The notes under the pieces are model-generated. The model saw only the letters and a program-made list of their open reading frames with translations. It ran no database searches and was not told where the DNA came from. This document shows, in pieces, positions 20,599-23,418 of a DNA stretch of 25,901 nucleotides. Where the stretch lies: IMG/VR virus record IMGVR_UViG_3300037235_000012, positions 1-25,901 of that record. One strand, given 5' to 3'. This stretch comes from a virus. Position numbers and translations under genes: made by a program. Every line of letters begins with the position of its first letter. The stretch's first letter is position 1.

Positions 20599-20961
20599 AT
20601 GCGCTATGACCTGACTCAGCCGATCATGGACCTCTACGGTCACTCCGTCCCCGTGGACCCGGAACCGGGCGCCGGCGGCAAGGGATTTATCGATGGGCCA
20701 TCGCCCGCGCTCACCTTGGGAATGGTCCTCTTTCGTGCGGCGCTCTTTGTCGAGGCGAACTCGAACCCGCCGGCGGAGGAGAAATATCGCCAGGCGCAGC
20801 TCGCGGACAAGATCGTGAAGGGCGGATCGACCGTGGATTTGACCACCGAGGAGATGGGCAAGCTTCGCACCCAGGTCGGGCGCATGTACATGCCGACCAT
20901 CGTTTACCGAGTCTGGGGAATGCTCGATGTCCACGTCGCCGGCGCCGGCAAGGTCAACTGA
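20599..20961 (+). CDS. Small conserved phage protein, 120 aa
   Basis: ATG 20599 starts MRYDLTQPIMDLYG. The body is helical with LTLGMVLFRAALF, a Glu/Lys/Gln segment (AEEKYRQAQLADKIVKGG), DLTTEEMGKLRTQVGRMY and a closing YRVWGMLD. From memory the pattern Leu-Thr-Leu-Gly, then Leu-Thr/Ser-x-Glu-Glu, then a terminal helix is common in a family of unnamed phage proteins encoded among tail genes. It has no enzymatic motif. It could be a tail assembly chaperone-type protein, but this is not demonstrated. Confidence 0.7.
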   Translation: MRYDLTQPIMDLYGHSVPVDPEPGAGGKGFIDGPSPALTLGMVLFRAALFVEANSNPPAEEKYRQAQLADKIVKGGSTVDLTTEEMGKLRTQVGRMYMPTIVYRVWGMLDVHVAGAGKVN

Positions 20962-20967
20962 TTGGAT

Positions 20968-20988
20968 AGGTCCTCCGGACGGAGGCCT
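20968..20988 (+). promoter_or_regulatory. Hairpin covering the ribosome binding site of the next gene
   Basis: CCTCCG (20972-20977) pairs with CGGAGG (20980-20985). AGG (20968-20970) pairs with CCT (20986-20988) across a single bulged T. The right arm contains GGAGG, the ribosome binding site 7 nt before ATG 20993. Folding would hide it, suggesting control of translation of the following gene. Confidence 0.45.
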
Positions 20989-20992
20989 GGTG

Positions 20993-21130
20993 ATGGGACC
21001 CTTCGATGATTGCGATTGCCACTCACACCATGAACATGGCCCGAGCGGGCACCGCGGCTGCTCGCTCTGTCATCCTGAACTCCTCACCCTGCCAGCCACT
21101 GACATTCCGCTCGACCTTTTAGACCCCTAA
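20993..21130 (+). CDS. His/Cys-rich microprotein, 45 aa
   Basis: ATG 20993 has a perfect GGAGG at 7 nt and is preferred over the in-frame ATG 20927, which would overlap the previous gene by 35 nt without a ribosome binding site. The product begins MGPFDDCDCHSHHEHGP and includes GCSLCHPELL. The cluster of four Cys (Cys-x-Cys and Cys-x2-Cys) and six His in residues 7-29 could bind zinc or another metal. The C-terminal 15 residues are acidic and hydrophobic. No family recognised. It precedes the sulfotransferase-like gene by 54 nt. Confidence 0.55.
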   Translation: MGPFDDCDCHSHHEHGPSGHRGCSLCHPELLTLPATDIPLDLLDP

Positions 21131-21184
21131 AGTCCTTCCCATCCCGCGCCGTTCTTACGGTGCGCTGTGGCAAAGGGCTTCTCG

Positions 21185-21709
21185 ATGATCTCATTCATGG
21201 TGCTCTCCGCGCCGCGCTCAGGCTCAACCTGGGCCGCTAACTGGCTCACGACCGAGCATCAAATCTGCCTCCATGACCCCGTTCTCGAGAACGGGGTCGA
21301 GCAATTGGAGGTGCTCCCATTCGTTCGCCGCTATGGACTCGCCTGCACGGGGCTGCCGCTCTTGACCGATTGGGTGAATCGGCAACAGTGCCCGAAGGTG
21401 GTCCTGCACCGGGACCTGGACGAGGTGAACGCATCACTCGTCGCGATCGGTCTCTCGCCGCTCTCGAAAGCGTGGGACGGCGGGGTGCTCGAGCGCATCG
21501 AGGGCTGGCACGTCCACTACAAGGACCTCTTTCGCCCCGGCACCGCGCGCGCGATCTGGCAGCATCTTTTGGGACACGGCACCCCGTTCGATGGCACCCG
21601 TCACATGATGCTTGCGTCCATGCACATCGACCCGCATTTCCCCCGCGTGCGCATTGATCATGAGCGTACCCGGGAGTTCCGTGCCGAGATCAGTAAGGCG
21701 CTCTCATGA
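21185..21709 (+). CDS. Sulfotransferase-like P-loop protein, 174 aa
   Basis: ATG 21185 is favoured because AAGGG lies 7 nt upstream; GTG 21167 is an in-frame alternative. Residues 9-16 read APRSGSTW, the 5'-phosphosulfate-binding motif of sulfotransferases. HRDLDEVNASL places Arg76 and Ser84 eight residues apart, the spacing of the 3'-phosphate-binding Arg/Ser pair in that family. Such enzymes move sulfate from PAPS to hydroxyl or amino groups on sugars, peptides or small molecules. At 174 residues it is shorter than the usual 250-300, so acceptor-binding parts may be reduced. The stop overlaps the hydroxylase-like gene (ATGA). A 24-bp palindrome lies at codons 31-38. The substrate is unknown. 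Confidence 0.7.
   Translation: MISFMVLSAPRSGSTWAANWLTTEHQICLHDPVLENGVEQLEVLPFVRRYGLACTGLPLLTDWVNRQQCPKVVLHRDLDEVNASLVAIGLSPLSKAWDGGVLERIEGWHVHYKDLFRPGTARAIWQHLLGHGTPFDGTRHMMLASMHIDPHFPRVRIDHERTREFRAEISKALS
21275..21298 (+). repeat. Perfect 24-bp palindrome inside the sulfotransferase-like gene
   Basis: GACCCCGTTCTC (21275-21286) is followed at once by its exact reverse complement GAGAACGGGGTC (21287-21298). It is aligned with the reading frame and encodes DPVLENGV on both strands. Chance expectation in 26 kb is roughly 0.002 with uniform bases. A dimeric protein binding site or a modification/cleavage site is possible; no T-run follows that would make it a terminator. Confidence 0.85.
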
Positions 21710-22359
21710 AGGCTGCCCAGAAAAAGGCGCGCCAGGCCGTGATGAGAAACGAGCCCATCCGTGTCCTTCGCAAAGGCGTCAACGTGCAGCCCCTGGTCGA
21801 TCAAATCGAGGCGCAGCCGGAGCTCTGGAACGACAACGTGTTTCGCTCCTTCGGGAATGCGGCCGAGGGGTATTCCAATCCCCACAAGCGGGTCTCGGAC
21901 ATCATCGTCCGTTTCAACGACTGGAAGAACTGGAAGGGGGATCGGCATAAGTTCAACGAGCGCCACGAGTCGGTGTGGTGGTCGGCCTACCAGAAGCTCC
22001 CCTATGTGAAGCCCTTGGTCTTCGATCTGATGCGTCTTTACGAGGCCGAGAGCTTAGGCATGGTCCTGATCACCCGGATTCCGGCGGGCGGGGAGGTGCG
22101 CCGCCACGTCGATTCCGGCTGGCACGCGCAGCAGTACTTGAAGTTCGCGGTGCAGTTGAAAGCCGCTCCCGGGCAGAAGTTCTGCTACGACGAGATGGAG
22201 CTCGAGACCGAGAAGGGGGACCTTTTCGCCTTTGATAACTCGAAGCCCCATTGGGTCACGAACCCCACGGACTTTGATCGCTGGACGCTCATCGTCTGTC
22301 TACGCTTGGAACAACCGAATTGCCTGAATTGTCGGTGGCCCGGGCCCGACGTTCACTGA
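21706..22359 (+). CDS. Asp/Asn beta-hydroxylase-like 2-oxoglutarate/Fe(II) oxygenase, 217 aa
   Basis: ATG 21706 overlaps the sulfotransferase-like stop (ATGA), with AAGG 7 nt upstream. Residues 119-140 lead into the iron site ITRIPAGGEVRRHVDSGWH. His134-x-Asp136 and His182 (SKPHWVTN) form the facial triad. Arg192 (DRWTLIVCLR), ten residues after His182, fits the 2-oxoglutarate-binding Arg, with the same His/Arg spacing I recall for AspH-type hydroxylases. FCYDEMELETEKGDLFAFDN supplies the expected core strands. Such enzymes hydroxylate protein side chains or small molecules. A terminal Cys-x2-Cys (CLNC) may bind metal. Coupling to the preceding gene suggests a two-step modification; the target is unknown. 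Confidence 0.78.
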   Translation: MKAAQKKARQAVMRNEPIRVLRKGVNVQPLVDQIEAQPELWNDNVFRSFGNAAEGYSNPHKRVSDIIVRFNDWKNWKGDRHKFNERHESVWWSAYQKLPYVKPLVFDLMRLYEAESLGMVLITRIPAGGEVRRHVDSGWHAQQYLKFAVQLKAAPGQKFCYDEMELETEKGDLFAFDNSKPHWVTNPTDFDRWTLIVCLRLEQPNCLNCRWPGPDVH

Positions 22360-22377: not shown

Positions 22378-23418
22378 TTGCCAGCAGGGTGGGTAGCAGC
22401 CGCCGGCGCCGCGGTCTCCGCGGGCGAGTCGATCGAGGCGAATAACGCCGCCGGCGCGGCCGCCAAAGCGAACAACGCGAATGCGTCCGAACTCGCGGGC
22501 GCTCAGAACACGATGCTGAACCAGGCCGAGACGGTCGCCAACCAGCCCTTCCAGGCCTACACCGGACAGCTGACCGCGCCGATGACGGGCAACCAGCAGC
22601 AGGGCTACTCATTGGCCTCCTCGAGCGCGAACCAACAAGCGGGCCAGGCGGATGTCGCTCAGGGCACGAGCTTGCTCGGTTCCGAGCAGCCCTGGAACCA
22701 GGCGACCGAGGCCACCTACGCGAACCCGTATACGCAGGATGTCGTCAACACGACGCTTGCTAACCAGAACAAGAGTTACCTGCAATCGCTCGCCGCCGAT
22801 CAGACCGGGGAGGGTGCGACCAGCTCGTTCGGGAACTCGAGGGACGCCATCCAGGAGGCGACTCTCACCGCGGATAACACCCTCAACACCGCGACCACGA
22901 CCGCAAGCTTGAATGCGAACGCCTACAACGCGGCGATGAGTGCCTGGCAAAACGACAACCAAGCGAAGACGCAGGCCGCCACGGCTTACATGCAGGCCGG
23001 GAACGATGTCACCAACATGACCAACTCGCAGATCTCGAACCTACTTCAGACGGGCGGTGTGTCACAGGTCATCAACCAGACCAACCTCGATGCCCAGTAC
23101 GGTCAGTTCATGCGCCAACAGGGCTGGAGCGCACAGCAATTGGGCCCACTGATCAACGCTGTCACTGCCGGCAAGGGCGGCGTTGCGCAAAGCGCGCCCG
23201 TGCAGTCGAACGTCGGCAATTCGATCTTGGGGTTGGGCTCGACCTTGGCGGGCCTCTATGGGGGTGGCTCAACTGGGCAGCCTGCGACCGGGGGGACTTA
23301 CGGCACGAGCTCCTCCTCCCAGGCAGGCCTCGACAATGCGGCCTACAACTCGCTCACCATCCCGACCTACACCCCGGTCATGAACTTGGGGTCTTTCGGC
23401 TCGGGCGCCGGCGGATAA
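22378..23418 (+). CDS. Putative internal/ejection protein, Ala/Gln/Asn-rich, 346 aa
   Basis: TTG 22378 is chosen because AAGGAGAAGG ends just before it, giving MPAGWVAAAGAAVSAG. The protein is Ala, Asn, Gln, Ser and Thr-rich and mostly helical, without cysteine. YANPYTQDVVNTTLANQNK followed by GATSSFGNSRDAIQEA (about residues 118-162) matches a virion protein I recall from many short-tailed phages, thought to be packaged in the head and ejected. The C-terminus is Gly/Ser-rich. It is first of three long hydrophilic genes at the end of the block, the usual place for ejection proteins. Confidence 0.7.
   Translation: MPAGWVAAAGAAVSAGESIEANNAAGAAAKANNANASELAGAQNTMLNQAETVANQPFQAYTGQLTAPMTGNQQQGYSLASSSANQQAGQADVAQGTSLLGSEQPWNQATEATYANPYTQDVVNTTLANQNKSYLQSLAADQTGEGATSSFGNSRDAIQEATLTADNTLNTATTTASLNANAYNAAMSAWQNDNQAKTQAATAYMQAGNDVTNMTNSQISNLLQTGGVSQVINQTNLDAQYGQFMRQQGWSAQQLGPLINAVTAGKGGVAQSAPVQSNVGNSILGLGSTLAGLYGGGSTGQPATGGTYGTSSSSQAGLDNAAYNSLTIPTYTPVMNLGSFGSGAGG

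Follow-up and report, generated by a model that had tools for sequence, protein, structure and literature searches.

Free amino acids, proteins and lipids are all substrates of 2OG/Fe(II) oxygenases of the Asp/Asn beta-hydroxylase kind. Asp/Asn hydroxylases have already been annotated in phages, as in Limnohabitans phage DC33 (PMC12195039), and one is a core gene of the pelagimyophages (PMC7029224). Another phage protein family, phrog_10855, includes the 'putative nucleotide triphosphate hydrolase' of the Pseudomonas phages NP1, PaMx25 and PaMx28, whose genes lie in modules of replication type, away from any hydroxylase of the family studied here. We analysed a stretch of viral DNA of 25,901 nucleotides (positions 1 to 25,901 of IMG/VR virus record IMGVR_UViG_3300037235_000012, referred to as the window in the rest of the text) in which a full-length member of phrog_10855 and a putative Asp/Asn beta-hydroxylase are encoded by two overlapping genes. 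Both families had thus been annotated before, the former probably under a wrong name; the pairing itself is unreported in the literature that we searched, in which few subscription papers were covered and only an unrelated soil study was found.

Gene 1 (21185..21709, + strand) is predicted to code for a 174-aa protein of sulfotransferase fold with a PAPS-type phosphosulfate loop, and gene 2 (21706..22359, +) for a 217-aa 2OG/Fe(II) oxygenase. An earlier note made from the sequence of the window had described two open reading frames overlapping by ATGA; both were found as described, and the stop-start overlap (21706..21709, +) suggests that the two genes are translationally coupled. We placed the start of gene 1 at the ATG at 21185, which is conserved among homologues, 18 nt downstream of the GTG at 21167 chosen by the ORF finder.

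Judging by its sequence and modelled fold, gene 2 is close to certain to code for a 2OG oxygenase. Its product matches PF05118 above the gathering cut-off (E 2.3e-07, 31.2 bits compared to 22.6), and 56 of the 57 gene 2 homologues match this family at E<=0.01. The metal ligands H134-x-D136 (22105..22113, +) are invariant in the 57 homologues, and the segment from the metal ligand H182 to the 2OG-binding R192, ten residues further on (22249..22281, +), retains these residues in all 56 homologues that reach the region. When the AlphaFold model (pLDDT 86) was searched with Foldseek, the best match was L-proline cis-4-hydroxylase (4p7w, E 2.1e-9, TM 0.61), and human AspH (5apa, E 1.7e-6) and other 2OG hydroxylases were also retrieved. 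Gene 2 therefore has the HxD/H/R residues and the fold in common with AspH and L-proline cis-4-hydroxylase, but it belongs to a separate phage branch of PF05118, with 9-17% identity to solved members in the fold search. These results uphold the hydroxylase-like class, as well as the His-x-Asp...His and Arg pattern, that the earlier note had read from the sequence. A weak PHROGs match (phrog_274, 1.5e-4) labels the protein 'DNA endonuclease V', which conflicts with the Pfam match, the fold and the residues, and the label looks wrong.

PF05118 also includes LpxO, which favours a reading in which the two enzymes work on a molecule of the host, be it LPS or lipid A at its surface or a metabolite, and might for example prevent re-adsorption. 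The LPS sulfotransferase NodH chain 9vki, to which gene 1 has a weak profile match, points the same way, as does a weak match of one gene 2 homologue (locus L097; L numbers denote the collected loci) to the LpxO equivalog NF033391. However, that match scores 20.6 bits, far from the cut-off of 500, and gene 2 of the window has no match to this profile. Moreover, the closest fold of gene 2 is an L-proline hydroxylase, and the neighbours of the pair are virion genes rather than sugar or lipid genes. We consider a host molecule a very unlikely target.

Gene 1 shares with the cellular sulfotransferases (Sulfotransfer_3/Sulfotransfer_1; SULT, Teg12) the order of a phosphosulfate loop followed by R-x7-S, but its product is about 100 residues shorter. 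The putative 5'-phosphosulfate-binding loop, APRSGSTW (residues 9-16; 21209..21232, +), was delineated by conservation and by hhalign alignment to the Sulfotransfer_3 loop, and the 3'-phosphate-binding type motif R76-x7-S84 (21410..21436, +) has the 8-residue offset seen in sulfotransferases; the loop and the Arg/Ser pair of the earlier note are thus both present. All 57 homologues have P10, R11, S12, W16, H30, R76 and R139, and 56 of them have S84, a conservation well beyond chance level. The invariant His30 (21272..21274, +) is a candidate catalytic base. The last T of the loop, which is of the P-[KR]-S-G-[ST]-T type, is replaced by A in 9 of the 25 paired homologues. Active-site residues that vary among homologues would, according to the earlier note, have spoken against its proposal; they proved to be conserved in both families.

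The protein aligns with phrog_10855 over nearly its whole length (E 1.2e-39, residues 1-171 to positions 1-175 of the 180 of the profile), and tblastn retrieved relatives from 48 phage records, mostly of Pseudomonas, the best sharing 41% identity across 98% of the length. Since the collected homologues measure 156-185 aa, the small size of gene 1 is a family trait and not the result of a truncation. The 'hydrolase' label that PHROGs gives to phrog_10855 looks wrong for a sulfotransferase-like protein.

The window protein lies below the cut-off for Sulfotransfer_3 (E 0.021, 15.5 bits compared to 27). At E<=0.01 this profile matches 20 of the 57 homologues (best E 4.2e-06) and Sulfotransfer_1 matches seven; scored singly, L097 alone just passes the Sulfotransfer_3 cut-off (27.6 compared to 27). 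Comparison of the gene 1 family by hhalign with four cellular Sulfotransfer_3 proteins, for which a motif filter missed eight other loci, gave 93.8%, the confident part being the phosphosulfate loop alone. In an unrestricted alignment, the strands of gene 1 that carry R-x7-S and, further on, 'Y-x-D-L' also line up, in the same order. Single-sequence PDB searches returned nothing useful. The AlphaFold model of gene 1 has a pLDDT of 94, and its top PDB matches by Foldseek were SULT and Teg12, with small kinases close behind; these matches are weak (E 3e-3 to 4e-2), none reaching E 0.001, and the TM score against SULT7A1 is about 0.5.

This evidence is suggestive and falls short of proof of membership in the sulfotransferase family. 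The sulfotransferase-like reading of the earlier note accordingly stands in its motifs and their conservation, but is no more than suggestive given the missed Pfam cut-off and the weak fold matches. Gene 1 could instead have the P-loop fold of sulfotransferases and another activity, either transfer of another group or nucleotide binding as a helper, in which case the pair would consist of an oxygenase and an accessory protein. Sub-threshold Pfam scores, matches that centre on the loop only, weak Foldseek matches mixed with small kinases and the PHROGs 'hydrolase' label all favour this possibility. Against it, the loop lacks the Walker A Lys, the kinase control reached only 0.3% by hhalign, ruling out a shikimate-kinase-like reading, and cellular sulfotransferases can be aligned to the loop, R-x7-S and the later D-L strand in one and the same order. 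We find another activity unlikely, and hold with moderate confidence that gene 1 codes for a minimal sulfotransferase; its use of PAPS is inferred.

To survey the pair, separate scans of IMG/VR were run with each family, and gene 1 was also used as the query against GTDB genomes. The two genes are adjacent in 26 of the 28 records holding both families, a fraction that applies to close relatives only, as the hydroxylase scan was confined to the best 80 of 474 relatives. Among the fetched loci we counted 27 distinct pairs, some of them near-copies (L109 and L115) and most on fragments, as IMG/VR records usually are; 26 are adjacent and one, L158 from a prophage-like locus of Lysobacter gilvus, has a 210-bp gap. 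A whole-record search found both families about 11 kb apart in L036. Fourteen of the 27 pairs allow the genes a 4-bp overlap, as ATGA or GTGA, and the gene order is reversed in four (L088, L109, L115 and L158). The earlier note had named a lack of co-occurrence elsewhere as grounds for rejecting its idea, and the pair turned out to be present in many other phage contigs.

Pairs are spread over several clades of both gene trees, and about 8 changes of the paired state are needed on each tree, the gene 1 tree having long branches (L129, L153 and L089) whose placement is unsure. Distances between partners correlate (r = 0.51), and none of 2000 permutations gave as high a value. Partners have also been swapped: the hydroxylases of L129 and L024 are 69% identical, whereas the adjoining gene 1 proteins share only 23% identity. 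Of all the evidence for a functional link, this recurrence of the pair with exchanged partners is the strongest, and we consider it likely that the pair is genuine, conserved and linked in function.

Each gene is nonetheless common alone. Hydroxylase is absent throughout 49 of the 50 records with gene 1 and no hydroxylase in the fetched flanks, and gene 1 is absent throughout all 50 records in the converse situation; these records had been picked for having no partner in the fetched flank, and many are fragments. Siphophages of Pseudomonas and Stenotrophomonas carry gene 1 without its partner, in modules of replication type. Conversely, phage DC33, which carries a gene 2 homologue, and phage PfAn1 are without gene 1. 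Neither gene therefore needs the other, and this argues against an obligate two-step pathway. The DC33 record (L006, PQ492659.1) is a 39-kb circular sequence whose taxonomy line reads Inoviridae, which is odd at that size.

Downstream of the pair in the window lies a gene for a DNA ejection-like protein (22378..23418, +; phrog_4287 'DNA ejection protein', E 2.7e-9), which marks the context and is itself a candidate substrate. An ejection-like gene follows the pair in 16 of the 24 paired loci that extend far enough to tell and follows the hydroxylase in 36 of 52 unpaired loci, while a cupin adjoins the hydroxylase in 14 of these 52 loci and in none of the 24 paired ones; these counts were made with regular expressions and are rough. 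Examples of the small cupin-like proteins are encoded at L146:5636-5992, L116:6546-6872 and L094:5714-6055. Directly upstream of gene 1, a GNAT-like acetyltransferase is encoded in L100 (4297-4797), L103 (4980-5480) and L137 (4992-5522), which thus contain a GNAT-sulfotransferase-hydroxylase run. In phage PfAn1, an annotated acetyltransferase (weak GNAT match) follows the hydroxylase. Since cupin, GNAT and gene 1 vary beside the hydroxylase, the hydroxylase is the constant element and its partner changes.

Such varying partners support the existence of a slot for modifying enzymes within the late operon. They also keep alive the explanation that genes 1 and 2 share a place without sharing a substrate, the fibre-ejection site collecting small co-transcribed accessory enzymes with different targets. 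Cupins that accompany the same hydroxylase family, the acetyltransferases and the few gene 1 copies that have an ejection-like gene close by but no gene 2 next to them (L026, L039, L040 and L052) are all in keeping with this explanation. However, 4-bp overlaps in both gene orders, with swapped partners, represent a tighter arrangement than sharing a slot needs, and we regard a shared place with different targets as somewhat unlikely.

Upstream of the pair, a 67-aa His/Cys microprotein (20927..21130, +) contains the motifs CxC and HHxHGPSGHRGCSxCHPEL, a pattern of zinc-binding type. The earlier note had proposed that it forms a three-gene cassette with genes 1 and 2. This extension is unsupported, because the microprotein occurs in only three records, the window and its two nearest relatives (L012 and L013), and is missing from sister clades: a search ahead of the pair did not detect it in L018, L020, L077 and L078. 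It is therefore best regarded as a neighbour outside the conserved pair. A link to the 'Znf' gene beside gene 1 in phage NP1 was ruled out, the sequences being different. Further upstream, 20599-20961 codes for a 120-aa protein with no family match, and similar proteins are encoded upstream of the pair in L012, L013, L018, L020 and L077.

We propose, tentatively and at somewhat short of an even chance for the scheme as a whole, that genes 1 and 2, as part of the late (virion) operon of a tailed phage, would make up a cassette of two enzymes with coupled translation. The Fe(II)/2OG oxygenase encoded by gene 2 would put a hydroxyl on an amino-acid side chain, and the minimal sulfotransferase encoded by gene 1 would take sulfuryl groups from PAPS made by the host. 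No APS kinase was found in the 25 paired records, most of them fragments, which is consistent with the use of host PAPS. The two enzymes would share a target, most likely a late-operon protein (a fibre, tail-tip or ejection protein), which would be hydroxylated by gene 2 and then sulfated by gene 1, at the new hydroxyl or at one close to it. We infer that both enzymes have one target, that hydroxylation comes first and that the target belongs to the virion; such a two-step modification of a virion protein would be plausible. A more far-reaching version, which we hold to be distinctly unlikely, is a widespread module in which a single residue, in a fibre or ejection protein, is hydroxylated and then sulfated, yielding a sulfated hydroxy-amino acid, with cupin and GNAT proteins as alternative or extra partners of the hydroxylase. 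We know of no sulfated hydroxy-amino acid from virions.

The recurrence of an overlapping pair with swapped partners beside ejection genes points to virion proteins that are modified after translation, a little-explored part of phage biology that mass spectrometry can test directly.
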